Part shown: positions 43,206 through 62,890 of the stretch, piece after piece
Layout of the letters: every line of letters starts with the position of its first letter
How positions within the stretch are numbered: position 1 is the stretch's first letter
Origin: Paludibaculum fermentans
Lineage (GTDB): Bacteria > Acidobacteriota > Terriglobia > Bryobacterales > Bryobacteraceae
Reading direction: 5' to 3'
Assembly: GCF_015277775.1 (NCBI RefSeq)
Contig: NZ_CP063849.1
Span: forward strand, 1,178,001 to 1,242,000
Length of the DNA stretch: 64,000 bases
Translations under genes and position numbers: made by a program
Notes under the pieces: generated by a model
Databases searched by the model: none
What the model was told of the DNA's origin: nothing
What the model saw: the letters and a program-made list of their open reading frames with translations, nothing else

Positions 43206-43227
43206 TGGTAAGATAAAGGGGTATTGC

Positions 43228-43305
43228 GGCGGGTGTAGCTCAGTTGGTAGTAGCGCCAGATTGTGGTTCTGGATGTCATGGGTTCGAATCCCATCACCCG
43301 CCCCA
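43228..43305 (+). tRNA. tRNA-His (anticodon GTG) with encoded CCA
   Basis: A complete cloverleaf: acceptor GCGGGTG (43229-43235) pairs with CACCCGC (43295-43301), with the histidine-specific extra G at -1 (43228) and a C discriminator (43302) followed by an encoded CCA (43303-43305). Anticodon stem CCAGA/TCTGG encloses loop TTGTGGT with anticodon GTG at 43263-43265. The T-arm has GGTTCGAATCC. The D-arm reads GCTC-AGTTGGTAG-TAGC, one base longer than the usual AGTTGGTA-GAGC form and with a C-T mismatch at its base. Confidence 0.95.
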
Positions 43306-43378
43306 AAAGCCCTTCAGACCCCACCTTTCCACCAAACCGGCGGAATCCCTTCACAACCTGGCAGCCTTCCAACGTCCC

Positions 43379-44737: not shown

Positions 44738-44794
44738 TCTCGCCGATCTTCGCCTCTGTCCGCTGGGCCCCCGTTTTCGTTCACACTGGAATGG

Positions 44795-46048: not shown

Positions 46049-46062
46049 CCCAACCCGGAATT

Positions 46063-46085
46063 GAGCCGCGCATGTTAGTGAGCGG
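46063..46085 (+). repeat. REP-like element, GAGCCG-N11-GAGCGG
   Basis: A 23-bp sequence with exactly the core found at the RAYT locus, located between the phosphoesterase gene and the 3' end of the phage-like cluster. The inner eleven bases differ from the other copies except for the central GT-AG. Confidence 0.65.
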
Positions 46086-46126
46086 GCACGACGCACTACC
46101 TCCGCACCACCATCCATCACCCCACC

Positions 46127-49100
46127 TCACACCCGTACCGTCACGGTCAAATCCCGTCCCGGATCACTCCCTCCATTCCGACCCACCGAAACAACATCCA
46201 CTCTCAACTCATCCCCCTCACCCAGCGGAGCCCGGCCCCACCCGTCCACCACGTTCGATCTCCGGCTCCCGGCCGCCACCGTCAACTCGCAATAGATCGA
46301 GCCATTCACCAGCACGCGAGCCACCACCGGCTCCCCGATCGGAGCGATGCCCATTCTCGCGGTGACATCCCGCACGGCCGTCCGCCCATCCACCACCAGC
46401 GGAGGCGCCACCGAGGTCATCACCGCCGGAACCCCCTCATACTGCATCGTGTACTGCCCGCCCGACATCGTCCGCAGTCCACCCGCGATCAAACCCGCGA
46501 ACGACAGCCCCGCTGCCGGCCCGTCCCCGCGCGAGTTCGTGAAATACAACTCCGCCGCCGCGATCCGCGTGTTCGGCAAGGCCACCCGTTGCGAGTACCC
46601 GGCCGCAATCGCACTCCCGAAGAACCCAATGGGGAAGGGCAGCACCACGGCCCTCTGCGTCAGCGGATAGACACTCTCCCCTGCCATTCGACCGGCCACG
46701 CCAGACTCGAAGCACCCCCGTTCCACTTCACAGGACATCCGGTCCCCGGCCACAGTCAACACCCGCATCAACTCATCGCCCACCTGCAGCAGTGTGCCCA
46801 CCTCCACATCCGCCGGCCTGTTGAACGACACCGTCACCGCGTCCTCCGCCACATCCCCGGCCAGGGCCAGCAGACTCGGGCTCGCCAGTTCATCCCAATA
46901 GTGAACCCGCAAAGTCCCAGCCTGGATGCCGTGCGTATTCTCCAGGCTCTCAAACCCGATCCCCCCCACCTCAAACTCGCCGCGACCATCCGCCGACAAC
47001 CCAAACGTGGCCAGTCCCGGCACATCCGGATCCCCACCTTCCGCCGAGCCGCCCACCTCAAACCGCGTGACAATCGCCTCGCGCAAGGCGCTCTCCACAC
47101 CCAACGCATTGACGGCGACCCCCGTCACCTGCACCCACTGTCCTGCCAGGTTCGGAACCAGGAAATCGATCGAGTCCGTCTGCGTAATCCCGATCGGCTT
47201 CCACCCTGATTCCACAATCGTGAAGAAACTGGTCCCGTCGGGAACCACCACCCAATCCTCGGTCAGCGTCAGCACCTCAGCGGTATGCCCGGCGATCGTC
47301 CGCTCCTGCCCAGCCCCACGCCCCCGAGTAATCCGCACAACACAACCCGCCCATAGGTCCCCTTCCAACCCCAACCCGTCATGCCCGATCACCCGAGCCC
47401 CGTAAGTCGTCGCCGCCACCTCCGGACCCAGCTCAAACCGCCACTGGAACCGCGCATGGTCATAGTTCCCATCCGGAGCCGCGCTAGCCTGCGCCGCCAG
47501 TCCCGTATCCACAAACGACCCGTTCGCCGCCGCCTCCTCCGCGATCAAATCCAGGACCCCCGGCTTCGTCCCCCGGTACACTCGCATCCGCTCACTCCCC
47601 GCGGCAAACCGCAACCCCGTCAACTCCACCGAGTACGTCGCAGCGCCCGCCGGCACGGTAGCCCGCACCACAAACGACAACCCCGATTCATCCCCGTGTT
47701 CGTTCACCGCGCTCACCGCGTAGTAGTACGTTGCACCCGAGGCCAGGGTCCCGCCGCCCGCGTGTAGCGCGGCCGCCAACCCCACCACCGGAGCCGCTAG
47801 CCCCGTCAACGCTGGCCGCCGCGGCGGGCTGAACTTCGCCGTCAACTCCACGAAGGCGCCCACTCCCTCTTCGCTCTCCATCACGCCGAAGTCCTGCCCG
47901 CCATCCGCCCGCACCACCGTCCCGCACAACGGCCGTGGCGTCCCCAAGCCACCCTGCGGCTCGTTCCCTCGACCCTGCGCATCCTGTGGATCTCCGCCCG
48001 CCAGCGCATACCATTCATCCTCGTGCCGCTGCGCCGCAATCCTCACCCGCTCGAAGTTCACCGAGGGCGTCAGCCGCAGCACCCGGTACACTGCCCGATC
48101 CAGTCCCTCCTTCGCATGCGACAGCGCAATCAGGTCGCCCGGCCGCAGCCCAATCGCCTGCACACTCGTCTCGAACTCCACATAATGATTCCCCTGGATG
48201 TTCTTCGAGATCTGCAGCCGCATCACCCGAGCCGCCTGGTCGAAGTGCGGCAGCCCCATCGCCCCAAACGGAGCCGCCACTTCGCACCCCGACGCCGCCG
48301 CATCTTCAAAGTCCACCAGCGACAGGCTGTCCTGCTGATACTGATTGAACTCATCCTGGAACTCGACACTCAGCCGGTTCGGGCTCTCGCTCTGCCCCTT
48401 CCGCGTGATCCGGAACGTCGACCGGCCCCGCCCATCCCGGGCAATGCCCGAGAACCCGTTCAGCCCATCGCCAAACTCGTAAGCCGGCCACCCGCCCGCC
48501 AGCGGCGCAACCGAATTCGTCACCTCGCTCTGGACCCCCTGCTGCCGCGCCATGGTCGTCTCCGGCGACACCTGCACCTGCCCGCCTTCGTCCACCGTGA
48601 TCATCAGCGCCGACGCCATCCGCAGCCCGCCAATGACATCGTTCAGACTCCGCCGCTGCGTCAGCAACAGATTCGTCTCAAACCGCGGCACCTGCACCTC
48701 CGCTCCTTCCGGAGTCCGCGCCGTCACAAACTCATCGCAATACGCCGCCGTCGCCGCGAAGCTCTTCAGGTTCAGTTCGCTCTTCGTCCACCCGCTGCGC
48801 CGCAGCAGATCCAGCAGCACCCACGCCGGATTCTTCGTGAACACCACATCCAGCGCCGCGCCCTCGGCGTCATACCGCCGCAGCTTCAGCCCATTCACCA
48901 GTACATCCACCTTGGGCAGTGCCCCCGTCTTCAACAGTGAGTTCGGCAACACTACTTCGAGACACGCCATACCCCCATGCGGATCGCCCAACGCCTGACC
49001 CTGCGCATCCGCGAAGCTCAGGTTGAAGCCGCCATTCCGCTCGCCCAGGCTCAATACGTTGTACCAGCCCGTCCCCGTCATGTCCTGGCCCGCCTGGCCC

Positions 49101-50038
49101 AACGGCAGCTCGACTCCATTCGCCACCACCTTCAGGACACCCTCCAACGGACCCGACCCCACCAGCACCTCGGCGTGTGTCAGATTCCCATCACTCCGCG
49201 CGAAGATCACCGGAGCCGCCAGCCACCCCGTCCCATACATAACCGGCACCGCGTCGTTCGCCCGAGCCCGCCCGTCCACCGCATCGGCGACCTTCGTCTG
49301 CTCTCCATGCGGCCGCACCGCAATACTCGGAGGGATAAACGCAAACCCGCCAAACCGCGCCGTAGCGTTGCCCGCCGCATCTTTCGAGAACATCCCCCGA
49401 GCCGCGCAATCCCCCCGCGTCCGGTTGCACCCCGTGAACGCCGCGCCATTCTCCAGATTCCCAACACCACCCTCGACCCCAGCCGAGTACCCGCAATGGA
49501 AGAACGGCGAGTAGCCCTCGCCACCCGCCGCCTCCGTCCGCTCCTCTTCACTGGAGGGAAACCGCCACGGGCAGCGCGCCTGAATCCGCAGCGTCGGCAC
49601 CGCCAGCCGCTGCAGGCTCAGCCGGTTCGTAAAGCTCAGCCGCGCCGCCGTCTCGGTCAGCTCGTCCACCGGATTGGCGCTACCCAGAAACACACCCGTC
49701 AACTCCGACACCGGCGCACCCGCTTCAATGTCGAAGAACCCGAACCGCACCTTCAGCCGTGCGCCCTTCCAGCCAACACTCCGGTCGATCTGCGACACCA
49801 CGCCGTCCACATTCGACAGCTCCAGCCAGAACCGCGACCCCGCGTCAATCGCGTCGTCCCCCGCCAGCCGCAGATCGAATCCACCATGCCGCAGCAGCCG
49901 CGGGGCATACTCCTCGCCCCCCACCGTCACCCGGTGCGTCGCCCACCGCTCCACGCGCCCTTCGGCCAGCGTGCAATCGAACACCAGCAGCGGAGTGTCC
50001 AGCACCTCCTGCCTCTTCCTGCTATGAATCGTCCCCAT
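46127..50038 (-). CDS. Tail-tip/central-fibre protein with gpL-like Cys motif
   Basis: A 1303-residue protein, the largest of the cluster. The first 260 residues resemble DUF2163/gpL-type hub domains (VTVGGEEYAPRLLRHGGFDL, VFLGSANPVDELTETAARL) and contain four cysteines arranged RCPW ... FHCGY ... FTGCNRTRGDC, the pattern of iron-sulfur-binding tail-tip proteins. The remainder (about 270-900) is beta-rich with a gpJ-like organisation, an Ig/fibronectin-like region (GATYYYAVSAVNEHGDESGL) and an extended C-terminal part that probably binds the target cell. Fusion of hub and tip functions in one protein is unusual. It is the last gene of the cluster. Confidence 0.75.
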   Translation of the reverse strand: MGTIHSRKRQEVLDTPLLVFDCTLAEGRVERWATHRVTVGGEEYAPRLLRHGGFDLRLAGDDAIDAGSRFWLELSNVDGVVSQIDRSVGWKGARLKVRFGFFDIEAGAPVSELTGVFLGSANPVDELTETAARLSFTNRLSLQRLAVPTLRIQARCPWRFPSSEEERTEAAGGEGYSPFFHCGYSAGVEGGVGNLENGAAFTGCNRTRGDCAARGMFSKDAAGNATARFGGFAFIPPSIAVRPHGEQTKVADAVDGRARANDAVPVMYGTGWLAAPVIFARSDGNLTHAEVLVGSGPLEGVLKVVANGVELPLGQAGQDMTGTGWYNVLSLGERNGGFNLSFADAQGQALGDPHGGMACLEVVLPNSLLKTGALPKVDVLVNGLKLRRYDAEGAALDVVFTKNPAWVLLDLLRRSGWTKSELNLKSFAATAAYCDEFVTARTPEGAEVQVPRFETNLLLTQRRSLNDVIGGLRMASALMITVDEGGQVQVSPETTMARQQGVQSEVTNSVAPLAGGWPAYEFGDGLNGFSGIARDGRGRSTFRITRKGQSESPNRLSVEFQDEFNQYQQDSLSLVDFEDAAASGCEVAAPFGAMGLPHFDQAARVMRLQISKNIQGNHYVEFETSVQAIGLRPGDLIALSHAKEGLDRAVYRVLRLTPSVNFERVRIAAQRHEDEWYALAGGDPQDAQGRGNEPQGGLGTPRPLCGTVVRADGGQDFGVMESEEGVGAFVELTAKFSPPRRPALTGLAAPVVGLAAALHAGGGTLASGATYYYAVSAVNEHGDESGLSFVVRATVPAGAATYSVELTGLRFAAGSERMRVYRGTKPGVLDLIAEEAAANGSFVDTGLAAQASAAPDGNYDHARFQWRFELGPEVAATTYGARVIGHDGLGLEGDLWAGCVVRITRGRGAGQERTIAGHTAEVLTLTEDWVVVPDGTSFFTIVESGWKPIGITQTDSIDFLVPNLAGQWVQVTGVAVNALGVESALREAIVTRFEVGGSAEGGDPDVPGLATFGLSADGRGEFEVGGIGFESLENTHGIQAGTLRVHYWDELASPSLLALAGDVAEDAVTVSFNRPADVEVGTLLQVGDELMRVLTVAGDRMSCEVERGCFESGVAGRMAGESVYPLTQRAVVLPFPIGFFGSAIAAGYSQRVALPNTRIAAAELYFTNSRGDGPAAGLSFAGLIAGGLRTMSGGQYTMQYEGVPAVMTSVAPPLVVDGRTAVRDVTARMGIAPIGEPVVARVLVNGSIYCELTVAAGSRRSNVVDGWGRAPLGEGDELRVDVVSVGRNGGSDPGRDLTVTVRV

Positions 50039-50041
50039 GGT

Positions 50042-50794
50042 TCACTCCGCCACCTTGCTCTTCAAAATCACGATCACCGCATTCCGGTTCGGACCCGTCG
50101 CCGAAACCTCCAAACCATCCGTCGCGAATCTTGTTTGTGGATACACGCCGCCCGGGCCGTACGTTGGCTTATAAGGCGACGGCGCGGCCTGCGCTTCCAA
50201 CTGCAGGCCGCGCACCATCGCCTGGCCCCCGCCGTCCACGTCCAATCGCGCGGCGGTCCCTTCGCCAATCCCGAATCCGCTCACCCAAATCCGCCGCCAA
50301 CCGCTCGCCGCAGCGAAATGCCGCGACACGCCACCCAGCGACAACGTCACACCCGCTCCCTTCACTTCCGCGCTGAGGCAGCAGGGGGCGCCCGCCGGCA
50401 TCGCCACACCCTGCTGCACCCCTTGCGCCGCCAGGCTGCCGTTCGACAAGGCGAACTCGCCCGGCGCCGTGACGCTCACATTCAGCAGCGCGTCCCTGTT
50501 CCACCCGCCAGTGGTCAGGTCCTCGCTCGCCGCCAGCAGATTCGCCAGCGGATCCACAAATGTGAACGCCATCAACCCGCCCCGAGCCGCCGCATACAGC
50601 GCTTCAATCGCACCCGCTTCGCTGTCCGACAACTCGGCATATTCCAATCGCCAGGTCACCTCCGCCGGGCCGCCCGCCAACATCCGCGACACATGCCCGC
50701 CCGGACTCACCGTCTCCACTCTCTTCCTGCGCGCCGTCCGTACCATCGGATACTGCGCCACCGCGCCCGTCGTCAAAAATGGATAGACCAACAT
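50042..50794 (-). CDS. Phage-like minor tail protein A (TGAVAQYP family)
   Basis: A 250-residue protein. The N-terminus (LTTGAVAQYPMVRTARRKR) shares TGAVAQYP with the next upstream tail protein, and the first 100 residues have a similar fold pattern (FTFVDPLANLLAA), which suggests duplicated DUF2460-like modules. The C-terminal half (about 110-240) is beta-rich and resembles a carbohydrate-binding-like lobe (SAEVKGAGVTLSLGGVSRHFAAAS). The order before the tip protein matches the distal-tail/hub zone. A 3-bp gap separates it from the tip gene. Confidence 0.6.
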   Translation of the reverse strand: MLVYPFLTTGAVAQYPMVRTARRKRVETVSPGGHVSRMLAGGPAEVTWRLEYAELSDSEAGAIEALYAAARGGLMAFTFVDPLANLLAASEDLTTGGWNRDALLNVSVTAPGEFALSNGSLAAQGVQQGVAMPAGAPCCLSAEVKGAGVTLSLGGVSRHFAAASGWRRIWVSGFGIGEGTAARLDVDGGGQAMVRGLQLEAQAAPSPYKPTYGPGGVYPQTRFATDGLEVSATGPNRNAVIVILKSKVAE

Positions 50795-50795
50795 C

Positions 50796-51152
50796 TCAAC
50801 CCACCTCCTCGGTCACCACCAGCGCGACCCCGCATTCCATCCGCGACACCGCCCTCACCGCGGCCTCGTCTCCCTCCAGGACGCATCTCTCCGACACCGC
50901 CCCATTCCACGGATCCGTAAATCGGAACGGCTCCAACGTGTTCAGGTACTGCTCCGCAAAGGCCGCCACGCGCAGCGCCTCGCCCTCGTCCAACTGCTCC
51001 ATCCGCACCACCCACCGGCGCCTTATCCGCTGGGACGCAAACCGCTGCTCGCCCCCATCCAGGAACTCCACTACGGTCGTCCCCGTCCGGAGCCCCCGTC
51101 CCAGCGGATACTGCGCCACCGCCCCCGTCTTCAAACCTGGAAACTCCGGCAT
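50796..51152 (-). CDS. Phage-like minor tail protein B (TGAVAQYP family)
   Basis: A 118-residue protein beginning MPEFPGLKTGAVAQYPLGRG, paralogous at its N-terminus to the 250-residue neighbour 1 bp downstream. It contains EALRVAAFAEQYLNTLEPFRFTDPWNG, reminiscent of DUF2460-type distal-tail proteins in which a short beta domain carries FxFxDP. It starts 10 bp after the tape-measure gene. The role as distal tail component is inferred from position. Confidence 0.6.
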   Translation of the reverse strand: MPEFPGLKTGAVAQYPLGRGLRTGTTVVEFLDGGEQRFASQRIRRRWVVRMEQLDEGEALRVAAFAEQYLNTLEPFRFTDPWNGAVSERCVLEGDEAAVRAVSRMECGVALVVTEEVG

Positions 51153-51162
51153 CGTCTTTCTC

Positions 51163-51714
51163 CTAGAACTCCTGCATCACTCCGCTCAACCCCTGGGACT
51201 CCAGCAGCGCCCGCTTCACCGCCTGCGCGATCTCCGGAGCCCGGTCCACAAACGACCGGCTGTCCATCGCCTCCACCTGCACCACCACATTCGCCCCCGC
51301 ACTCCGCACCCGCCCGTCCTCGCCCCGGTCCAGCGGCATCATCAGATCTCCGCCATTCTCCGAAAACGCAACGTCATACTTCTGCTTCGCCGGCATCACA
51401 AACGGAGCCAACGCCGCCTGCGTGTCGTCCGAGCCTCCGTCGAACAGGCTCATCAGCCCGCCCACCAGCGGATTCACCCACGACACCCAACTCGCCGCCC
51501 CGCCACTACTGCTCTTCGAAACAACTGGGGCCAGGCTGCTCGAAACCATTGAGGACAGCAGCGAGGAAGAGAGCGGCGACCCGCCCGTCGCCATCGTCTC
51601 CTCCATCTGCCGCATCAGTGCCGGCCCGTCCAAATCGGACGACACCGGCACCGCCACCTCCTCCACCACCCGCCGCAAAACCTCCGACAAGTCACTTCCT
51701 GTGTTGTTGCTCAT
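51163..51714 (-). CDS. Short tape-measure-like tail protein
   Basis: A 183-residue protein in the tape-measure position, directly after the tail chaperone gene. Its centre has a hydrophobic, Ser/Gly-rich stretch (SSLAPVVSKSSSGGAASWVSWVNPLVGGLMSLF) and the C-terminus has VVVQVEAMDSRSFVDRAPEIAQAVKRALLES, the pattern seen at the end of many tape-measure proteins. Classical siphophage tape measures are several times longer; at about 1.5 angstrom per residue this would give a tail only some 27 nm long. It starts 23 bp inside the chaperone T region. Confidence 0.6.
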   Translation of the reverse strand: MSNNTGSDLSEVLRRVVEEVAVPVSSDLDGPALMRQMEETMATGGSPLSSSLLSSMVSSSLAPVVSKSSSGGAASWVSWVNPLVGGLMSLFDGGSDDTQAALAPFVMPAKQKYDVAFSENGGDLMMPLDRGEDGRVRSAGANVVVQVEAMDSRSFVDRAPEIAQAVKRALLESQGLSGVMQEF

Positions 51715-52398
51715 CTCGCGCCTTCTCCCATTCCCGGTCCAGCAGGATCATGGCTTCCACGTCCCGCGCCCACTCCACCGCTTCCTTCCGCGCCTGCCAC
51801 ACCGGATACAGCTCGAGCCACGCCAGGCTCTCCGCTGTGATCTCCGGCTTCGGACACGCAAACCGCACGACATCTCCGTGCGCCCACACGATCTTCGACC
51901 CCGGCTCGTGCCCCATCCAGGCACACCGCCGCCGCTTCTCCAAACCCTGCCGCCTGCACTCCCCGCACCTCCACCCGGCCGCATTCGCAAGATGGTAATG
52001 GAAGGCGAGGATCAGTTTTTTCTTTCTTCTCCGGTCAAGTGGCACTGCTGCCGCACGCACCCCGCGATCTCCCGGCACAGCGCCTCCGGACCCTTCTCCA
52101 CCAAAGACTCCACCGTAGCTGCCGCCCCATCGATCGCCAGCCCCGTCACCTCCAGCAGCCCCCACTCGATGTACACGCGATCGATCCGCGCCTCCAACTC
52201 CGTCGCCGCCAGCCGGTCCGCCAGGCCCTCGCCCGCCGCGCGAAACTCCAACTCGTTCATCAGTTCGCGCATCCGCCTGCTGATCTCCGCCCGCCGCGCC
52301 AGCGAAATCTTTGCGACGGCGAAGTGGACCCCCGGCATCACCCGCGAATCCACCATTTCGCCGCTCGTCCACTCCACACGCTCATCCAAACGCGACAT
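51692..52398 (-). CDS. Tail assembly chaperone gpGT-like fusion made by -1 ribosomal frameshift
   Basis: Joining the 0 frame (52398 to 52015) with the -1 frame (52015 to 51692) gives about 235 residues. The first 128 residues are the gpG-like part; the extra 107 residues (LILAFHYHLANAAG onward) include a zinc-ribbon-like WRCGECRRQ...RRRCAWMG segment and a charged helical end. The extension frame has no suitable start codon near the join, so frameshifting is the simplest way to express it. In lambda-type phages gpG and gpGT chaperone the tape measure during tail tube assembly. Position between tail tube and tape measure fits exactly. Confidence 0.72.
52012..52398 (-). CDS. Tail assembly chaperone gpG-like (0-frame product)
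   Basis: A 128-residue product that stops at TGA 52012-52014, directly after the slippery site. It is mostly helical (MRELMNELEFRAAGEGLADRLAATELEARIDR) and ends with GEERKN. It starts 17 bp inside the end of the tail-tube gene. Sequence alone does not match a named family; the call comes from size, position and the frameshift signal. Confidence 0.65.
   Translation of the reverse strand: MSRLDERVEWTSGEMVDSRVMPGVHFAVAKISLARRAEISRRMRELMNELEFRAAGEGLADRLAATELEARIDRVYIEWGLLEVTGLAIDGAAATVESLVEKGPEALCREIAGCVRQQCHLTGEERKN
52015..52021 (-). promoter_or_regulatory. Canonical -1 frameshift heptamer A AAA AAC
   Basis: Read on the minus strand in the 0 frame AGA AAA AAC TGA, this is the X XXY YYZ heptamer A AAA AAC, one of the most efficient bacterial -1 slippery sites, and the stop codon follows immediately. 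Slipping by one base gives AAA AAA CTG ATC and continues in the gpT-like frame for 107 codons. Confidence 0.75.
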
Positions 52399-53551
52399 AG
52401 ATCTCGTCCTCCCCGCTGCCCATTGCCTGCGACCCCTTCAGCCGCCACCGCATCCGCGAGTCCTCGCTATCGAACTCCGGCACCGCCGGCACGAAGCTCG
52501 GCAGGAACACCCCGCACAGCGCCCCTGCCTGCTCACCCAGTTGCAGCATCAGCGGGATCGGGCTCCTCTGCCGCGCCGCCTGGTAGATCTCCTCAAACAC
52601 CGGCTGGTCCTGCCCGTACATCTCGAGATCCACCGTCACCTCACGCTGTCCCGACACCAGGCATCGCGGCGCCAGCGTCCCGAAGTCGCGCGTCCGGAAC
52701 TCCATGTTGTTCTTCACCACCACCCGCGCATCGCTCAGCGTGAACAACCGGTTCGCGCCATTCCCAATCCACACCTGGCCCAGATGACCCGGCACCGGCA
52801 TCTCGCTCAAGCCCTGCAGCGCCGGCTCCACCGGGAACTGCGTCAGCCCGCCCTCGCCGCTCTGGAAACTGGTGCTGTCGATCACATCCGCGGCCTCGCC
52901 CGAGAACCGGATCTCATGGAAATCCCCATTCACCCGGATCTCCATCTCATCCACAGCCGCACCACGCAGAATCCGCTGCACCGCCGTACCCGGAGTCCAG
53001 TAGTCGTGGACACTCACCGTAGGCAAGTCCACCGCCGGCGCATAGACAATCGAACCCCCGGCCACCGCCCCTGCGGCCTGCCCCTCAGTAAACGGAGCAT
53101 TCACCACCACGTTCAACGCATCCGTCACGCCGCAAACAAACCGCAACTCGCTCCCGATCACAACAGCGGACCCCGGCTGCAGCCCATGCGCCTGCGCGAA
53201 AGTGATCACAGTCCCGTTGATCGCGCTCACCCCCAGCTCCATCGAAGCCACCGGAGCCGCGCCCAACGCCGCCTGCAGCAAGGCCCCATAACGGGGAGCC
53301 TCGCTACCCGATCCGCGCCCATACACATAGGTCCGCAGGTCGAATGGCGTCCGCCGCCGCAGTCCACCCTGGATCCCCTGAATCGTCCGCGACCCCGTCT
53401 TGTCCTTCCGCCGCGGAGTCTCCGTCTCCTGTCGCGCCGCCAGGCTCATCGCCGTGAACCGTTCGGCCGCCGTTACGCCCGCCACCACGCCAAAGCCACT
53501 CTCCAGCGCCGCATACAGGCGGTTGTTATTCGAACTGATATAGCAAGCCAT
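52382..53551 (-). CDS. Major tail tube protein
   Basis: A 389-residue protein that is likely to polymerise into the tail tube. It begins MACYISSNNNRLYAALESGFG and has beta-strand-rich sequence with a FTRT/GxRTIQG-like segment (KDKTGSRTIQGIQGGLRRRTPFDLRTYVYG), SFQSGEGGLTQFP and an Ig-like C-terminal part. It is the second most abundant type of gene expected in this kind of cluster and sits just before the tail chaperone. Identity is by pattern and position. Confidence 0.75.
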   Translation of the reverse strand: MACYISSNNNRLYAALESGFGVVAGVTAAERFTAMSLAARQETETPRRKDKTGSRTIQGIQGGLRRRTPFDLRTYVYGRGSGSEAPRYGALLQAALGAAPVASMELGVSAINGTVITFAQAHGLQPGSAVVIGSELRFVCGVTDALNVVVNAPFTEGQAAGAVAGGSIVYAPAVDLPTVSVHDYWTPGTAVQRILRGAAVDEMEIRVNGDFHEIRFSGEAADVIDSTSFQSGEGGLTQFPVEPALQGLSEMPVPGHLGQVWIGNGANRLFTLSDARVVVKNNMEFRTRDFGTLAPRCLVSGQREVTVDLEMYGQDQPVFEEIYQAARQRSPIPLMLQLGEQAGALCGVFLPSFVPAVPEFDSEDSRMRWRLKGSQAMGSGEDEIYVAFG

Positions 53552-53599
53552 CTCTTCATCGCCCTTTCAAATTCCAACCAAATCACCACCCACCCCGTC

Positions 53600-54094
53600 C
53601 TACCGGCTCACCCCCAGCCAGCAAACAACCCGCCCCACCTGCATGAAATTCAATCCGCCCTTCTTCACCGCATCGAAGCCCACCTCATACCCGGGCTCCA
53701 GAAACACGCCCTCCCCCAGGCACCCGGCATTCCGCTCCAACACATCCCGTACCGCATCTACATAGAAGTGCAGCTTCTCGCCGGTGCCCTCCAACCGGTC
53801 CGACGACACCCGTACCTCGGTCACCACCCGCATCCGCCCCGAGAACACCCGGAACTGCTCGCTCCGCTTGTTCTCGATCTGGTCGCAGTACGTCTGGATC
53901 ACCGGATACCTCGTCGACCCCGCCTTCTCCTGCAACTCCGCCGGAGCCCGCGTCACCCCCACGCCCACACCCTCCACCACCTCCGGGCCCAGCCCGTAGT
54001 AGCCCTGCAGGGCCGTCATGCTCGGGCCCAGCCCCCACTCGCCCGCCAGCAAACCCCGCAGGCGCGACACCGCCTCCATCGTTGGGAACGTCAT
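53600..54094 (-). CDS. Tail terminator / head-tail joining-like protein
   Basis: A 164-residue protein with an N-terminal helical region (FPTMEAVSRLRGLLAGEWG) and beta strands (RVFSGRMRVVTEVRVSSDRL, LHFYVDAVRDVLERN). The helix plus beta-sheet size and place upstream of the tail-tube gene agree with tail-terminator proteins of long-tailed phages. It is 2 bp after the connector-like gene. No named motif is certain. Confidence 0.55.
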   Translation of the reverse strand: MTFPTMEAVSRLRGLLAGEWGLGPSMTALQGYYGLGPEVVEGVGVGVTRAPAELQEKAGSTRYPVIQTYCDQIENKRSEQFRVFSGRMRVVTEVRVSSDRLEGTGEKLHFYVDAVRDVLERNAGCLGEGVFLEPGYEVGFDAVKKGGLNFMQVGRVVCWLGVSR

Positions 54095-54096
54095 CG

Positions 54097-54834
54097 TCAG
54101 CCCCTCCTCAGCAGTCCGCTCCGGACGACCCGGAAATCCGCCGTCTGGCCGTTACCGGGAGGCCGGCCCGAAACCAATCCGCTCGCCGGCAACATCCATG
54201 TCTCGCCCACCGGCAACGGCTCGGCATTCTGCAACCCAACTGACGCTTCATCCGCCCCCGCATACAAATTCCAGTGCGTGGCATTCTCTTCCGGGAACAG
54301 CACCGAAACCAGCAGCGAATGCGGCACGGGCGAACTCACGGCCACAGCCGCGCTGGCCGCACTCTCGCGCCTCTCCGCATCCAGCAACGTCGCCTGCACC
54401 CAATAGGTCGCCGCGCCGGTCACCCCTTCGCCAATCTCCGCCGACACCCGCGAGGGCCGCCGCACCGGTTGCGCCGCCATCTGCACCCCGCTCTCGAAAT
54501 ACCGCCGCCGCTGCTCCTCCGCCAGCGCCTCGAAGTGCCGCCACTTCTGCCCGTACCGGTCGTTCAACTGGCTGAAATAGGCATCGCGGTAGACGGCCTC
54601 GAGGGTCTTCAACACGTGCCAGCGCTTCAGGCTGACACTGGCCACCACCTGGTCCACGCGACCCGTCTCCTCCCAGTCCAGAAACGCCTCCACCTCTTCC
54701 TGAATCTCTCCGGCCGCCAGATCCAACTTGGCCCGCGGATCAAGGCCCTCGCCGTTCGCCACGTCGAGTACGCCCGCATCCTGCGCCTTCAGATCGTCCA
54801 GGCGGCTCAAATCGCCGTCTACCAGCAATGCCAT
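54097..54834 (-). CDS. Probable head-tail connector protein with Ig-like C-terminal half
   Basis: About 245 residues from the ATG at 54834, which has AAAGGAG 9 bp upstream. The first half is helical (LSRLDDLKAQDAGVLD, LDLAAGEIQEEVEAFLDWEE) and reads like a gp6/adaptor-type connector, with an EALAEEQRRRYFESG helix. The second half (about 125-240) resembles a fibronectin-type domain (TYWVQATLLDAERRESAASAAV) often fused to virion proteins. Assignment is tentative. Confidence 0.5.
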   Translation of the reverse strand: MALLVDGDLSRLDDLKAQDAGVLDVANGEGLDPRAKLDLAAGEIQEEVEAFLDWEETGRVDQVVASVSLKRWHVLKTLEAVYRDAYFSQLNDRYGQKWRHFEALAEEQRRRYFESGVQMAAQPVRRPSRVSAEIGEGVTGAATYWVQATLLDAERRESAASAAVAVSSPVPHSLLVSVLFPEENATHWNLYAGADEASVGLQNAEPLPVGETWMLPASGLVSGRPPGNGQTADFRVVRSGLLRRG

Positions 54835-54839
54835 GACAC

Positions 54840-55163
54840 TTACTCCTTTTCTGTCTCCGTACCGGTCCGCAGCAGGCCCATCGGATCCGAGATCACCTGT
54901 ACCTGGATCCGGCTGACGGCCTCCTGTTTTTCGTGCGCCAAACGCCGCGCCGCGAGGTCCGCCACAAACTTGGCGATCTCGTCCTCGTCCGCTTCGCGCG
55001 CCTTGCCCTCGACAATCAACTGGCAACCCACCCGGCGCGAAACCTGCGTCAAAACGCCGGCCTTCCCGCCATCCTGGGTCGCCAGGCTCACGATGTAAAA
55101 ATCCCGGGCCTGGATCTTCTTCTCCAGGTCCTTCACTTTCTTGAAATAGCCCTTCAAATCCAT
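54840..55163 (-). CDS. Small cluster-encoded protein of unknown function
   Basis: A 107-residue protein (MDLKGYFKKVKDLEKKIQARDFYIVSL...) from ATG 55163 preceded by AAAGGA. It has a helical N-terminus and a Lys/Glu-rich body with no recognised motif. It lies between the capsid spacer and the connector gene. Virion or assembly role is inferred only from the neighbourhood. Confidence 0.55.
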   Translation of the reverse strand: MDLKGYFKKVKDLEKKIQARDFYIVSLATQDGGKAGVLTQVSRRVGCQLIVEGKAREADEDEIAKFVADLAARRLAHEKQEAVSRIQVQVISDPMGLLRTGTETEKE

Positions 55164-55629
55164 GCCAATTCCTTTCTCTCCGAAGCCAGAACCCTGGCTC
55201 GGCCCATCCATCCACCAACCCGAACCCAAGCAACGAACCACGGCCGCAAACCGAACCACGACCCCATTGCGCCGCGTCCGGAAACCGAGCCGCAACCGCA
55301 AATTGAGCCGCGACCGTAAGGGAGCGGTGGAGCCCGCAAACGACCCCACCCCAACCCAAAACGAAACACAACCCAGGAAGCCCGGCCCACCCCCACGCAG
55401 CGAACCCCGAATGGAAAGGAGCGGGCCACGGCCAATCAAGCGTTTCAACGCAGCGGGCCTCGGATCCGCCCGTCATCGACGGATCCGCGGCACCCCCCCA
55501 GTCCCGGAGCGTAAGCGACGGGCTAACCCGGCCCGCAAAGCACAGCCCCGACAGCCAGGACGGCGGACCCCCAAGTCCGCGCGGGGTCCCCTGACCCCGC
55601 CCGCGGCCAACCCGGGGAAACCCGCCCGC
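55164..55629. other. Non-coding 466-bp spacer with hairpins downstream of the capsid gene
   Basis: No ORF that I trust lies here. A strong hairpin, GCGGGGTC-CCCT-GACCCCGC (55581-55600; stem 8, loop 4), lies about 30 bp beyond the capsid stop on the minus strand. A second one, CGGATCCG-N11-CGGATCCG, lies at 55461-55487. A REP-like core is at 55305-55327. These could act as a transcription attenuator that makes capsid RNA more abundant. The region otherwise is GC-rich and repeated (AACCxxACCC-type). Confidence 0.55.
55305..55327 (+). repeat. REP-like element, GAGCCG-N11-GAGCGG
   Basis: GAGCCG-CGACCGTAAGG-GAGCGG, the fourth clear copy of the core in this window, lying inside the phage-like cluster. 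This shows that the chromosomal REP family has invaded the cluster. Confidence 0.65.
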
Positions 55630-56541
55630 CTAGCTCCTCACCTGCACGCCATGAGCGTTCCTCAGAACACCCACCCCGTACAGCATGTCCACCGTGAACT
55701 GCTGCGCCAAAGTATTCGGCTGGTAGCTCATCGTGATGCGCATGCCCAGGTTGCCCAACTCGGCATACTCAGCAATCGCCCCCGTACCCGGCAGCGGCTT
55801 CGGCAGCCGGCGAATCGCCAGGCCCAGCGCATTCTTCGCGAACGCGATGTTATTGGTCGTCGTCGGACCCGTCCCCGTCTTCTTCACGAACTGCGAGCGG
55901 AACACATAGAAGTCCTTGATCCGCCCGATGCTGCCGTCGATCAAAGCGCGCAGCCCGGCATCGCCCGACGTCGCATACTCGCTGAACCGCGAAATCTGCC
56001 GCAGTTGCGAATACGCATTGCCGTCCACCACCAGGTACTTCTGCTCGCTCGCCGGAACCTTCGCATTGAACAAGGCCGTCTCGGCCGAATCCACCACCGA
56101 CTCCAGCAGCGCCGTCCCACCCGTACCCAGCGGAGTGTTCGCCGTGAACTGGCTGTACAGGTTCAGCAGGTCGCTCTCCACCTTCTCGGCCAGTGCGATC
56201 ATCGCCGGCTGCATGTACAACCGGAGCAGATCCGGCACCGCGATCACCTTCGTCACATCCGGAATCTGGAACGTCGCCTCGGCGTGCGTATTGAGCACGA
56301 TCTGCGCATTCGCCACATCCGGATTCTGGCTCTGCACCGAGCCGCCTTCGGCGATGTTGTTCGCCACCATCGTCGGCGGAATCGGCACGTTCACCGTGTC
56401 GCCGGCCTGCGCCAGCGTCGGTTCGAAGTCCCGGTTCACCAGATTGCCCATCACCAGTTGGCCCGACAGGGCCGGCAGGGCGTCCACCGCCACAAGCTTC
56501 ACAATCGCATTCGCCAGATTGGCTGAAGTAATAGCTGACAT
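55630..56541 (-). CDS. Major capsid protein, P22 gp5-like
   Basis: A 303-residue protein beginning MSAITSANLANAIVKLVAVD, close to the P22-type coat pattern, with VMGNLVNRDFEPTLAQAGDTVNVPIPP and MQPAMIALAEKVESDLLNLY. P22-type capsids are made without a prohead protease, using a scaffold, and the adjacent upstream gene looks like that scaffold. ATG 56541 has GAGGAAAAGAGAA before it. The HK97 fold is expected but not shown by sequence. Confidence 0.8.
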   Translation of the reverse strand: MSAITSANLANAIVKLVAVDALPALSGQLVMGNLVNRDFEPTLAQAGDTVNVPIPPTMVANNIAEGGSVQSQNPDVANAQIVLNTHAEATFQIPDVTKVIAVPDLLRLYMQPAMIALAEKVESDLLNLYSQFTANTPLGTGGTALLESVVDSAETALFNAKVPASEQKYLVVDGNAYSQLRQISRFSEYATSGDAGLRALIDGSIGRIKDFYVFRSQFVKKTGTGPTTTNNIAFAKNALGLAIRRLPKPLPGTGAIAEYAELGNLGMRITMSYQPNTLAQQFTVDMLYGVGVLRNAHGVQVRS

Positions 56542-56605
56542 TTCTCTTTTCCTCTTTCTCTTTCTTCTGTCTCTCAACCGCGCCGCGTCTCTGCAGACCG
56601 CCGCG

Positions 56606-57199
56606 CTACTCGCCCCGCAGGCTCTGTGCCGCCACCTGCGAGATCTGCTCACGCACGCGCTGCAGCTCGTCCGCGCTCATGCCCGGATGAATCCGCTCCA
56701 GCTCCACGCCGTAGCTTCCACCACCCGCTCTCTGCGGGCTCAACGCACCCGAACCGCCGGCAATCCGCGCCGGCAGAAACTCGGGGTTCTCCTGTACGAA
56801 CGACGTCAGGTGCTCGCGCAATCCGCGCTCACCCTCCGCCGTCTTCGCGATCAGCGCGCCTTCCGCCGTGCGGACAATCTCGTCCTTCACGATCTTGAAA
56901 GCCAGGTCGACCTTGGCCACGCCCAGCCGCTGCAACTCCGCGCGGATCTGCGAGCCACGGTCCGTCTCCTCCGCCGCCTGGCGGCTGCGCTTGTTCTCTT
57001 CCACCAGTTCGTTCACACGCCGTTCCAGCGACTCCCGCCGGCGGCGCTCTTCCACGAGCTCGTTCTTGTAGGCCGGCTCCGTCTGGCGCCGCTCCACCGT
57101 CACGTACTCCTGAATCACTGAACGCACCACGTTCTTCCAGTCCTCACCCTGTGTCTGTGGAGACACCTCGGGCGTCTGGTCTTGCGACTTCTGCTCCAT
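56606..57199 (-). CDS. Probable capsid scaffolding protein
   Basis: A 197-residue protein with acidic and Gln-rich N-terminus, a long coiled-coil-type helix (residues about 45-90: ELVEERRRRESLERRVNELVEENKRSR) and a Gly/Ser-rich C-terminal part. Scaffolds of P22-like and other phages have such helical, charged composition and lie directly upstream of the coat gene. Function is inferred from structure and position. Confidence 0.65.
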   Translation of the reverse strand: MEQKSQDQTPEVSPQTQGEDWKNVVRSVIQEYVTVERRQTEPAYKNELVEERRRRESLERRVNELVEENKRSRQAAEETDRGSQIRAELQRLGVAKVDLAFKIVKDEIVRTAEGALIAKTAEGERGLREHLTSFVQENPEFLPARIAGGSGALSPQRAGGGSYGVELERIHPGMSADELQRVREQISQVAAQSLRGE

Positions 57200-57227
57200 T
57201 GCTGTCCTTCCTTGTTTGGTCGCGCGC

Positions 57228-58610
57228 CTAGGCGGTCGCCTGCGCGTCGATCTCTTGTGCGATGCGGTCCTTCACCTGTTGGCTCGCATCGCAGAGATAC
57301 TTCATCGCCAGCTTCTTCTGGATCTGCGTCTCCAGGGTCTTCGAGGGAATCCCCAGCGACAACAGCCGCTGCGCATCTTCCAGCTCGCTGCTGAACTCAC
57401 CGATGTCGAATTCGTCCAAACCCGACACCCCAATCTCGATCTCGTCCTGACGGGCCGCCGCCAGCGTGCGCAGCAGCTTCTTCAGCGTGTCCTTCACCTT
57501 GTCGCCGAAGCCGCGCAGTACCTCCTGGGTCACCAGGTAGTCCCTCTGCTTGCTCAGGCCCGTCAACGCCGAGTTCTTCGAGAGCGCGCCGCCGGCCTGG
57601 CTCATCATGTAGCAGATCCGGTAGATCTCCTCCTTCAGCCGGTCCGTGTTCTGCAGCGCAATCTCGAATACATGCCCCTCCGGCTCGGTCCAACCAAATC
57701 GGTCGTCCTTGCCGAGCTGCACGTAATAGCTCTCCCCCATCGTCTGCTTGAACTCTTTCTCCGAGTAGATCACCGGCATCGAGAACAAGCCCATCGTCAA
57801 CGCCCAGGCCAGCGCGTTCGACTTGTTGAAGTGCTCCAGCTGCAGCGACGATGCTTTGTTCATCAGCCACATGCCGTCCCCCAACGTGAATTCGAACACC
57901 GGTACCTTGCCCAGGCCGGCCAGCCCATGCCGACCCTCGTCCACCTGCACAATCGCCGCCTGGCTGCCGTCCCGGTCGTCCTGCCGGAAAATCGTGAACC
58001 GCTCCCGGTCATACCGCACCCACTGCCGCTCAATGTGGCCCACTGCCTCGCCGCCGCTCACCAGCCGCTCGCCCCGCAGCACCACCCACTCATACTCCCC
58101 GCTCTCGTCCTTCTGCCAGTGGATCGCGCTCTGCGCCGGATACTGGCTGAAGTAGCCGCGCGACAAGCCCAGCGCGTCCTCCTCCGCCTTCGAGCCCGCC
58201 TGCACCCCCAGCCTCGGGAAGTCCAGCACGATGTAACTCCGCCCCATCACCAGGGCCTCAATCACCTGCTTGCGGAAGAAGTCGCTCAACGTCGACCCCT
58301 GCCGGTCACAGTCCTCCGCCAGCCCGTTGAAGAACTGCCGCGCCCCCTCATCACGCCCTTCCAGCGTCACCAGCGGTTCCCGCCGGAACAGCGTCGCCGC
58401 ATACCAGTCGATGATCGAGCCGATGTAGTTCTCATAAAACGCCCGGCTCACTCGCTCCTGGTAAACCTCAGGCGGCTCCTTCTGCCTCGGAATCAGATAG
58501 CGGTCCGCGTTCGCCGTGAACTGCTCACCGCCCAGGTAGAGGTCGCGGTACCGCGGCCACACTCTCTTCCACGCCGTGTATTCGGGATGTTCCCGGTTAA
58601 TATCGAACAC
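57228..58610 (-). CDS. Portal protein (DUF4055-like)
   Basis: About 460 residues from GTG 58610, 13 bp after the terminase stop and preceded by a GGGAGAAAAGG purine-rich stretch. The portal ring feeds DNA into the capsid. Typical features are ADRYLIPRQKEPPEVYQERVSRAFYENYIGSIIDWYAATLFRREP near the N-terminus, DFFRKQVIEALVMGRSYIVLDFP, and helical C-terminal parts (EEIYRICYMMSQAGGALSKN). Frames upstream overlap the terminase gene. The call is fairly firm. Confidence 0.8.
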   Translation of the reverse strand: MFDINREHPEYTAWKRVWPRYRDLYLGGEQFTANADRYLIPRQKEPPEVYQERVSRAFYENYIGSIIDWYAATLFRREPLVTLEGRDEGARQFFNGLAEDCDRQGSTLSDFFRKQVIEALVMGRSYIVLDFPRLGVQAGSKAEEDALGLSRGYFSQYPAQSAIHWQKDESGEYEWVVLRGERLVSGGEAVGHIERQWVRYDRERFTIFRQDDRDGSQAAIVQVDEGRHGLAGLGKVPVFEFTLGDGMWLMNKASSLQLEHFNKSNALAWALTMGLFSMPVIYSEKEFKQTMGESYYVQLGKDDRFGWTEPEGHVFEIALQNTDRLKEEIYRICYMMSQAGGALSKNSALTGLSKQRDYLVTQEVLRGFGDKVKDTLKKLLRTLAAARQDEIEIGVSGLDEFDIGEFSSELEDAQRLLSLGIPSKTLETQIQKKLAMKYLCDASQQVKDRIAQEIDAQATA

Positions 58611-58623
58611 TGCCTTTTCTCCC

Positions 58624-59910
58624 TTACCAAAACAGCCGTCTGTTTCTCTCCCCGACACCGTGTTCCGGCTGGCTGTCCTGCCACAGCAGGTAGCCCACCG
58701 CATCGCTCAGGTGCGTCCGCTTCAGGTCGCGAGCCTTGTCGATCTCGCCCGTCCCCTCCAGCCACCGCACCCGCTCGAAATCGAGCATCAGCTCCTTGCA
58801 CCGCGCATCCACCACCAGCCCCGTCTCTCCGTTCGCCGATCGCAGCTTCGCGTTCACCAAACCCACCCGGTCCCGCACCGGCGGATTCCTCTTCGGAATT
58901 CGAAACACCGGTGCGGAACCCCCGTAGTCCTCGAAGAATCCCTGCAGAATCTCCCGGTCCGTCGTCCCCGCTGTCTGCAGGTGCGACGCACAGGCGTCCG
59001 CAAAGATCTCCAGCCCCGCCGGCCACTCCGGATACCGCCTGACAAACTCCAGGCACGCATCCCGCGTACTGGCCCGCGGCAGCACGATCTCGTCCAGCAC
59101 CACCAGCCGCTCCGCCTGCTGCTGCGCCACAATCGAACTCATCGGATTCACGTTGAAGTCCAACGCCCACAGCACCGGCAGCTCCGGATCCCACTCCGCC
59201 GCCCCCACGTTCACCTTGCGGTCGAACGCGTGGTACACCAGGCCGTCCTTGGGGCTCACATACTGCCCCAGCACCTCCTGCGCGAAGAAGGCTTCGTCGT
59301 AGCTCCGCTTGAGCCGGTCATAAAAATCCGGCACCTGCTTCAACAGGTGCCGGTTCTCATTTGGCTCCGCTTGCACACACTCATACCCGTCTACCGGGTT
59401 CTGAATGAATCGTTCGTACACCCAATCGAACCCCTTCGGGGTCCATACCGCGAATCCGCACAGCCTCCTTGCCAGCGGATCTCGCAGGCGCCCTTCCAGC
59501 CGGATCCAAGCCTGCTCGGGCGAGTAGGTCAACTCGTCCACCCCGAACCAGGCAAGATTCGTCCCCCGCAGCCGCTCGAAATCATCGAGCGGGCGGAAAA
59601 TGATCTTCGAACCCGTGTCCTTCAGCGTCAGCTGGTTCTCCGCCTTGTTGAAATCGAACGGCAACCCGTTGTCCCTCAAGACTTCGAACAGCGACGTTTG
59701 CGTCGCGTCCCGCAGCATCGGGTACGTCGGAGCCCCAATCAGCCCCGCCCGCCCCGGATTCAGATACGCCAGTTTGATCGCTTCATTGCACAGCGCCTGG
59801 CTCTTTCCTGACCCAATCGGGCCTGAAAATCCTTTAAATCGCGCCGCCGAGTCGTGAAAACGCAACTGCGACGGCAGAGGCTCGTATTGGATTTCGCGGC
59901 GGATCTTCAT
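58624..59910 (-). CDS. terL: Large terminase subunit (packaging ATPase and nuclease)
   Basis: A 428-residue motor protein. Walker A FSGPIGSGKSQ near residue 36, Walker B LAWFGVDELTYSPEQA near 125 and a nuclease region WALDFNVNPMSSIV near 233 with Asp residues, followed by a RNase-H-like C-terminal part (IFADACASHLQ). It should package DNA into the prohead. ATG 59910 overlaps the upstream small gene and has GGAAGGACAA before it; an upstream in-frame start at 59931 would overlap more. Confidence 0.9.
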   Translation of the reverse strand: MKIRREIQYEPLPSQLRFHDSAARFKGFSGPIGSGKSQALCNEAIKLAYLNPGRAGLIGAPTYPMLRDATQTSLFEVLRDNGLPFDFNKAENQLTLKDTGSKIIFRPLDDFERLRGTNLAWFGVDELTYSPEQAWIRLEGRLRDPLARRLCGFAVWTPKGFDWVYERFIQNPVDGYECVQAEPNENRHLLKQVPDFYDRLKRSYDEAFFAQEVLGQYVSPKDGLVYHAFDRKVNVGAAEWDPELPVLWALDFNVNPMSSIVAQQQAERLVVLDEIVLPRASTRDACLEFVRRYPEWPAGLEIFADACASHLQTAGTTDREILQGFFEDYGGSAPVFRIPKRNPPVRDRVGLVNAKLRSANGETGLVVDARCKELMLDFERVRWLEGTGEIDKARDLKRTHLSDAVGYLLWQDSQPEHGVGERNRRLFW

Positions 59911-60224
59911 TTGTCCTTCCGCTCCACCCACTCCACCTTCACTGAACTCGGCTTCTCCGGCTCCACACTCTCCCTGAGCTGGATCAGCTTGAAAGCATCG
60001 TTCACTGAGAACGACATGCTCTCGTCTTCCACCTGCTCGGCAAACTGGACCAGCATCCGGTCCATCAGTTGCCGCATCTGCTTCGCCCGGAACCTTCGCT
60101 TCCGCGGCGTCTTCTGCGCCTCTTCCACTGGTTTCACCGCGACGGGGGCCACAGCCTCCGCCACCGGTTCGCCCGCTTTCAGGAAGCGCCCGTTCTTTGC
60201 CCGCCCAACCGTTCTCTGTTCCAT
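59907..60224 (-). CDS. Possible small terminase subunit (unassigned 105-residue protein)
   Basis: A basic N-terminus (VGRAKNGRFLKAG), a central KTPRKRRFRAKQMRQLMDRMLVQFAEQ helical part and an acidic end. It starts the cluster, overlaps terL by 4 bp and has GGAGAAAGGCTG before its ATG. Place and size agree with small terminases or DNA-binding adaptors but no motif is diagnostic. About 186 bp of AT-richer sequence without a clear promoter lies upstream (60225-60410). Confidence 0.5.
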   Translation of the reverse strand: MEQRTVGRAKNGRFLKAGEPVAEAVAPVAVKPVEEAQKTPRKRRFRAKQMRQLMDRMLVQFAEQVEDESMSFSVNDAFKLIQLRESVEPEKPSSVKVEWVERKDK

Positions 60225-60410
60225 CAGCCTTTCTCCGTGCGAGTTGCCTCGACGCAGAAATCCTACAGCACCCTAACCGGCGATTTTGAAGGGAATTCTC
60301 CTAAGTGATTGAAAACAAGCGTGCGATATTTTGCGAAATCCGGAACAGATTCTCGGGCGGGCTCCAAAAAGGCCGACTTCCGCCGTTTGTTCGCCTGTTT
60401 TAAAGGGGAT

Positions 60411-61526: not shown

Positions 61527-61531
61527 TGACC

Positions 61532-62869: not shown

Positions 62870-62890
62870 ATCAGTCAGATCATACTGAAA

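Follow-up and report, generated by a model that had tools for sequence, protein, structure and literature searches.

A conserved phage structural cluster of the Bryobacteraceae that probably encodes a gene transfer agent

Gene transfer agents (GTAs) have a known genetic basis in only a few lineages. Tailocins have tail genes without head and packaging genes, while capsid-forming phage satellites have their own integrase and a patchy distribution. In the GTA of Rhodobacter capsulatus (RcGTA; Rhodogtaviriformidae), the tail tip includes DUF2460 and Phage-tail_3 proteins and the head cannot hold its own gene cluster; alphaproteobacterial GTAs also show a carbon-cost bias. The structural cluster of RcGTA is about 14 kb long (PMC9836097), its large terminase (TerL) is preceded by a short small terminase (TerS) described as having no recognised N-terminal DNA-binding domain (PMC6854486), and its tape measure consists of a 113-residue helix with 83 and 20 further residues (PMC7296036). 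A high GC skew is reported for alphaproteobacterial GTA clusters (PMC9836097). Three GTA groups are classified in PMC9662315, which also notes that GTA genes often lie at several loci, and the GTAs of Bartonella, Brachyspira, Desulfovibrio and Methanococcus are described as independently domesticated phage clusters (PMC9662315, PMC11841831). The element analysed here is a phage structural cluster on the minus strand of the 9.53-Mb genome of Paludibaculum fermentans, at positions 46127-60224 (G000:C1:1224127-1238224) of a 64,000-nucleotide window, the whole stretch examined. G000 is the genome of the window; other G-numbers denote genomes and L-numbers fetched loci.

The cluster, which comprises 15 genes in about 14 kb with head, packaging and tail functions, is probably a GTA of the Bryobacteraceae that was independently domesticated from siphophages of a lineage still represented by prophages in the family. 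Its domestication, already proposed in the original prediction made from the DNA letters, is well supported by its distribution, the selection acting on it and its chromosomal site, while we infer that its particle moves genes between cells. The portal gene is present in 128 of the 150 Bryobacteraceae genomes, fragments at contig ends included (93 of the 109 high-quality genomes; 71 of the 76 genera), usually as a single copy. Portal identity declines with kinship, from 97, 95, 78 and 78% within the genus to mostly 45-67% across the family. Of 299 genomes drawn from the class, 57 of the 67 that belong to the family carry the portal, against three of the 232 others; a draw of 396 genomes of the phylum gives two of three family members and five of 393 others, the latter all weak matches (E 7e-4 to 3e-11, at most 27% identity). 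No record in the phage collection reaches 60% identity, the best listed being 29% for the portal (among the best 20 of 31 records) and 28% for the coat (among the best 20 of 51). In IMG/VR, 87 stretches that encode a portal relative are filed as viruses; the 80 listed (L072-L151) are on contigs of 4.1-23.8 kb, and the one contig checked, L111, also contains the remainder of the cluster.

Portal-negative genomes number 25, of which 19 also have no match to the tip and six do (three whole, one in two pieces, one partial and one weak). Part of these absences are assembly gaps: in G126 the conserved upstream flank is present and TerL runs off the contig end, and in G024 TerL lies at the very start of a contig. 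In G119 (L266:7971-10337, on a 310-kb contig), residues 5-51 of TerL are fused in frame to a non-contractile tail-sheath/fibre protein (NCTSP) from its residue 148, at the site shared with other genomes; this fusion is either a scar left by deletion of the cluster or an assembly error.

The order from TerL to tip is kept in the cluster loci fetched, except that L060 (G104) has no TerL and L063 has extra DNA in the interval between the tape measure and distal tail genes. Twelve of the 13 genes counted are open, stop to stop, over at least 90% of the length of the window gene in 35-36 of 36 loci (L065, a stretch without the tail genes, was left out). One of these twelve, the 118-aa gene, is better counted as open in 34, since its matches in L060 and L062 fall inside the 250-aa gene; the thirteenth gene is the tape measure, described below. 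The pseudogene-type decay that would have spoken for a remnant is not apparent. Purifying selection is also evident: in three pairs within the genus of the window, dN/dS (Nei-Gojobori, own script; 14 genes, the 107-aa gene left out) stays at or below 0.31 in every gene, with values of 0.007-0.009 in the coat, near 0.05 in the portal and 0.13-0.16 in the tip; two flanking host genes give 0.04-0.18. In two pairs of another genus dN/dS is at most 0.47, with high dS. Among genomes of the window's genus (the window against L032 and L033), dS is 0.15-0.29 from TerL to coat and reaches 0.33-0.67 in the connector, neck, tube, tape measure, tip and first part of the chaperone, but the second part of the chaperone and the 250-aa gene are at 0.12-0.20; these several-fold differences hint at recombination inside the cluster. 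The vertical inheritance expected of a GTA is borne out by the near restriction to the family and, in part, by agreement with the rpoB tree. This tree and that of eight concatenated cluster proteins (35 genomes; G116 and G065, with no or partial rpoB, excluded) have 16 of 32 splits in common, and their patristic distances correlate at 0.589, a value that none of 1000 permutations reaches (best 0.296).

Eleven relatives have the cluster at a common site. In ten of them the tip gene, the NCTSP gene or (in G119) the scar is followed by a gene for a Wzt-like ABC transporter; G089, the eleventh, continues at once with the next gene of the row. The eleven include G104, one of the most divergent genomes. 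The Wzt-like gene is absent from the extended flanks of G064, G026 and G008, and many other fetched stretches are too short to show it. In the genus of the window, the cluster has other neighbours, common to G100 and G145. Since the site differs between this genus and its deep relatives, the cluster has moved at least once, although it does not look ordinarily mobile.

The original prediction placed the cluster genes correctly in coordinates and strand, and their roles are borne out by PHROG and Pfam matches, several of them by position. It counted fourteen genes, having overlooked the 107-aa gene. In the order listed below, the genes run from the TerS candidate to the neck, and then from the tail tube to the tip.
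59907..60224, minus strand: candidate GTA-type small terminase (TerS), 105 aa; disordered basic N-terminus, two helices and C-terminal VxVxWVE suggest the role
58624..59910, minus strand: large terminase TerL (ATPase and nuclease), 428 aa; phrog_2 2e-38, PF03237
57228..58703, minus strand: portal protein, ORF of 491 aa; phrog_145 1e-50; alignment to most relatives starts near residue 30
56606..57199, minus strand: putative scaffold-like protein, 197 aa; conserved position between portal and coat, weak match to phrog_7250 (unknown function)
55630..56541, minus strand: major capsid protein (MCP) of P22-coat type, 303 aa; phrog_283 1e-42, PF11651 2e-18
54840..55163, minus strand: conserved 107-aa protein between coat and connector; family in 39 of 40 loci examined (35 clusters and four prophages)
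54097..54834, minus strand: putative head-tail connector/adaptor-like protein, 245 aa; position and conserved order
53600..54094, minus strand: putative neck or tail-terminator-like protein, 164 aa; position and conservation
52382..53551, minus strand: tail tube protein, 389 aa; phrog_290 8.5e-11, 'minor tail protein'
52012..52398, minus strand: putative tail assembly chaperone, zero-frame part, 128 aa; position and frameshift
52015..52021, minus strand: -1 slippery heptamer A AAA AAC, abutting the zero-frame TGA
51692..52024 (upstream limit approximate), minus strand: tail assembly chaperone, -1-frame extension, about 110 aa; position and frameshift
51163..51714, minus strand: shortened tape measure protein, 183 aa; profile match to C-terminal regions of prophage tape measures
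50796..51152, minus strand: distal tail protein, 118 aa, weakly DUF2460-like; PF09343 5.7e-4, below cut-off; also phrog_2913 'glycoside hydrolase' 1.8e-5 over residues 25-98
50042..50794, minus strand: distal tail protein, 250 aa, weakly DUF2460-like; PF09343 0.034, N-terminus similar to the 118-aa gene
46127..50038, minus strand: giant tail tip/host-contact protein, 1303 aa; phrog_31 2e-17, PF13550 6e-10

Prophages with a related coat occur in four Bryobacteraceae genomes, G100, G054, G032 and G041. Their coats are 68-74% identical to that of the cluster (68% in G100, 72% in G054), while the portal and tip of the G100 and G054 prophages are only 30-32% and 25-29% identical to those of the cluster. 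Like the cluster, the G100 prophage has the order TerL, portal, coat, connector, tube, tape measure, distal tail protein, tip and NCTSP, and the G054 prophage has the same order as far as matched. Unlike the cluster, the G054 prophage, which spans at least 37 kb, carries an integrase, a single-stranded DNA-binding protein (SSB), a primase-helicase and an AAA protein, while in G100 the prophage includes a lysozyme-like gene, and about 34 kb separate its portal from an integrase. In the portal and TerL trees, the four prophages are split from all clusters (support 1.0 and 0.98, respectively).

In TerL, residues G30, G33, G35, K36, S37, D125, E126, D251, D305 and D403, which we take to be the Walker A, Walker B and nuclease residues, are invariant in 35 of 35 loci. 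In L060 (G104:C3:2895021-2915020), ribBA occupies the place expected for TerS and TerL. The TerS candidate has no Pfam or PHROG match, but an ORF bearing its C-terminal motif was seen by eye directly before TerL in 35 of the 36 TerL-containing cluster loci, the exception being L057. These ORFs are 63-191 aa long from the first start codon, and their C-terminal region ends in VxVxWVE or a similar motif, whose W is invariant in all 24 sequences aligned, out of 27 collected. The AlphaFold model, of modest confidence (mean pLDDT 67), contains only helices 47-67 and 74-87 after a disordered basic start. As modelled, the candidate fits the 'GTA-type' TerS of PMC6854486, described there as without a recognisable DNA-binding domain. 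Unlike it, the TerS of three of the prophages (126-203 aa) have PHROG small-terminase matches, one with a helix-turn-helix (HTH) match below the Pfam cut-off; no TerS was found in the prophage of G100.

The tail genes are distinguished by a frameshift and by a very short tape measure. The second frame of the chaperone is -1 in 35 of 35 loci, in agreement with the frameshift originally predicted, and the slippery heptamer A AAA AAC/T is present in 33 of the 35, abutting the zero-frame stop in 32. The tape measure is matched by tblastn in 31 of 36 loci (30 at 90% length), and in the other five a 178-255-aa ORF with a matching C-terminal motif sits in its place. Its end has a weak match to phrog_3779 (0.005), no convincing PDB sequence match was obtained and its model is poor (mean pLDDT 63). 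In the two prophages of G100 and G054, the tape-measure position is taken by proteins of 1145 and 944 aa, against 183 aa in the cluster; the 944-aa protein has tape-measure PHROG matches and the 1145-aa protein has none. The cluster profile aligns with the C-terminal regions of both, over 75 columns of the 1145-aa protein (hhalign 95.9%, 5.9e-9) and 65 columns of the 944-aa protein (91.0%, 1.1e-6). The simplest reading of this match is that the tape measure lost its length, so the short forms probably derive from long ones. In L063, from a genome of another family (G353), the tape measure and the distal tail genes are separated by a 601-aa ORF (L063:4064-5866).

The NCTSP gene is encoded either beside the tip or elsewhere. 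The Pfam barrel PF23845 was confirmed in four of these proteins, and longer NCTSP-like proteins of about 1170-1340 aa were set aside. A relative of about 900-1020 aa (stop to stop) directly follows the tip in 18 of 37 cluster genomes, as it does in the G100 and G054 prophages, and some of these genomes also carry a second, separate form. In another 18 cluster genomes, G000 included, no NCTSP lies beside the tip, and each of them encodes a homologue of 940-1187 aa at another place, which in G099 is about 2 kb away on the opposite strand. The 37th genome, G158, has no NCTSP homologue, and its fetched stretch ends before the tail genes. In G000, the protein is encoded by a standalone tail-sheath/TIM-barrel gene at G000:C1:7607332-7610370 (L181:8333-11371), 6.4 Mb from the cluster along the contig or 3.1 Mb if the chromosome is circular; its neighbours, read by eye, include no phage gene that was noticed, so that it is apparently alone among host genes. 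Among six portal-negative genomes checked, which include G126 and G024 with their assembly gaps, only the scar genome G119 has an NCTSP. The presence of the gene elsewhere wherever the tip lacks it suggests that the protein serves the same particle as the cluster. A second NCTSP-like protein of G000 (1272 aa; G000:C1:9208438-9212085, L192) does not adjoin a homologue of this terminase or portal.

Pfam matches of the neighbours of the cluster include DUF362, a GH28 glycosidase, an iron alcohol dehydrogenase, a metallophosphatase, a TLC-type transporter, UbiD and SDR, and the flanking genes scanned, a part of the window ORFs, have host-type matches or none (none in three of ten in one set). The original prediction that integrase, repressor and lysis genes are absent stands as far as the search reached: the cluster itself contains no recognisable integrase, replication or lysis gene, and the genome-wide search, which covered tyrosine integrases (PF00589) only and not serine integrases, repressors or lysis genes, found none within 1.8 Mb of the cluster in G000 (2.97 Mb along the contig; 1.8 Mb if circular). 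The nearest tyrosine integrase is about 70 kb away in G099 and more than 400 kb away in G144, G064 and G008, and none is on the cluster contig of G100; in G104 one is about 18 kb away. No attachment repeat is apparent, the longest exact repeat between the flanks (42000-46126 and 60225-64000) being 12 bp against a random mean of 12.4. A tRNA-His gene (43229-43305) was rejected as an attachment site, with no exact repeat beyond chance, as was a tRNA-Val just past the tip, which occurs in four relatives and is not general. The host-like composition originally claimed is true of G+C (64.9% in the cluster, 63.9% elsewhere in the window). GC skew departs from it: the sense-strand value of +0.286 is higher than that of any of the 32 window host genes for which it was measured (maximum 0.190). 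This skew is only suggestive, since it is strong in the genus of the window but variable in the family (mean 0.148, range -0.012 to 0.325 in 36 loci) and also high in one of the four prophages (0.241).

Since a packaging motor, a shell, the frameshift and a short tail with its tip are kept under selection, and no genes for spread are recognised, the simplest product of the cluster would be a particle that carries host DNA. A host-controlled signal would lead to expression of the operon in cells, and coat, scaffold and portal would form heads. The terminase would fill these heads in headful fashion with host chromosome, because TerS appears to have lost the DNA-binding part that would select phage DNA. 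The tail would be very short, with a tape measure of about 150-255 residues instead of about 1000; by arithmetic, 0.15 nm per residue gives about 27 nm for 183 aa. The tip and the NCTSP, whether encoded beside it or elsewhere, would touch related cells for delivery.

Other explanations account for parts of these data. The cluster could encode a domesticated particle with another purpose, such as killing of competitors by tail contact, blocking of receptors against related phages or export of DNA, and the conservation and selection data fit such a particle too, as does the genus that keeps portal, coat and tail without this TerL. We nevertheless regard it as unlikely, since TerL is present in 35 of 36 loci with its key residues invariant and the portal and TerS candidate are kept, none of which a pure killing device would need; the TerS candidate also resembles the TerS described for GTAs. 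A satellite or split phage that is still moving, with a helper prophage for integration and replication, might be suspected from the related prophages with the same coat type, the different site in the genus of the window, the filing of the cluster as a virus in IMG/VR and the integrase near it in G104. Against this, tyrosine integrases are distant from the cluster in the window genome and five others, no attachment repeat is found, the cluster is usually single copy, one site is common to 11 relatives, portal and TerL are clearly distinct from those of the four prophages in the trees and the longest of the 80 IMG/VR contigs listed is 23.8 kb, so that an element still on the move is very improbable. 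A decayed prophage or chance remnant, suggested by the lack of recognised integrase, replication and lysis genes in the cluster and by the scar joining TerL to the NCTSP gene in G119, can be almost wholly discounted given the open genes in most loci, the low dN/dS, the conserved frameshift signal and the family-wide presence. The decayed or satellite prophage that accompanied the original prediction as its alternative is thus disfavoured.

Several observations weigh against the GTA interpretation itself. The particle, its packaged DNA and the transfer are all predicted from genes. Patchy distribution alongside related phages had been named in advance as grounds for doubt; the distribution in the family is not patchy, but related prophages do exist in the same hosts. 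Half of the tree splits are not common to rpoB and the cluster, several deep conflicts are well supported, and the MCP tree interleaves prophage and cluster coats. Since the G054 prophage, with a coat 72% identical to that of the cluster, spans at least 37 kb, the head might, unlike that of RcGTA, hold the whole 14-kb cluster, although a head of this capacity might still not take the distant NCTSP gene along. The contrast in TerS is thin, with an HTH match in one of three prophage proteins, below threshold, and overlapping sizes (63-191 and 126-203 aa). The genus of G104 has no homologue of this TerL in four of four genomes; the portal is kept in all four (one fragmented), and in G104 every gene from portal to tip has an open frame. 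Matches to phrog_2 do occur in that genus, the longest stop-to-stop stretch at most of these loci not being the terminase. The cluster also has no recognised peptidase gene. The carbon-cost bias of alphaproteobacterial GTAs is not seen either, the cluster proteins being richer in carbon per residue than those of the four prophages (TerL mean 5.10 versus 4.93-5.05; portal 5.12 versus 4.96-5.01).

If the particle works as a GTA, most of a family of soil bacteria possesses an inbuilt means of exchanging DNA, and some entries in virus catalogues, such as the 87 IMG/VR stretches with a portal relative, are in truth bacterial particles. On balance, we lean towards a separate, family-wide GTA of the Acidobacteriota whose conversion can be read against its sister prophages: the DNA-selecting part of TerS would have been lost, the tape measure shortened by about 80% and the NCTSP gene released into the chromosome, with only coat genes still traded with phages. 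Since these prophages survive in the same family, the passage from phage to GTA is testable gene by gene. No report of a GTA in Acidobacteriota was found among the open-access papers listed. PMC5900883, in which the term 'gene transfer agents' is used loosely, describes 35 putative prophages in 19 of 24 acidobacterial genomes; PMC12142844 describes a phage-like contig matching an Acidobacteriaceae genome, with GTAs mentioned generally; and PMC6172770 reports much non-viral DNA in purified peat particles, for which GTAs are named as a possible cause and no host is named.

The cluster is no tailocin, having TerL, portal and coat; it differs from capsid-forming satellites in its nearly family-wide distribution and in having no tyrosine integrase near; and the integrase, replication and lysis genes that would accompany the structural genes of an active prophage were not found, the search covering tyrosine integrases and part of the flanks. 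In the PDB sequences, no RcGTA-labelled chain was matched by MCP, portal, TerL or tube (E<=1) or by the tip (E<=0.1), and the RcGTA proteins were not directly aligned. Like RcGTA, the cluster has tail proteins of DUF2460 type (weak matches here) and a tip of Phage-tail_3 type. Unlike RcGTA, the cluster has a P22-type coat, a -1 frameshift chaperone and an NCTSP, and no recognised peptidase gene. As far as RcGTA is described in the sources cited above, both have a structural cluster of about 14 kb, a short TerS (here a candidate) before TerL and a short tape measure, and the high GC skew of the window cluster resembles that of alphaproteobacterial GTA clusters. Of the six GTA features given in PMC9662315, structural proteins derived from caudoviricetes are seen in the PHROG and Pfam matches, an endogenised and often multi-locus organisation in the lack of a tyrosine integrase within 1.8 Mb and in the distant NCTSP gene (whose role is suggested by complementarity), and mostly vertical inheritance with host co-diversification in the distribution, the trees and dN/dS, MCP interleaving and the deep conflicts excepted. 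The other three features are the packaging of mostly random host DNA, on which the TerS candidate without a recognised DNA-binding domain bears only indirectly, a genome too large to be packaged whole, and the delivery of DNA to other cells. By description, the GTAs of Bartonella, Brachyspira, Desulfovibrio and Methanococcus have the same kind of origin in other hosts.

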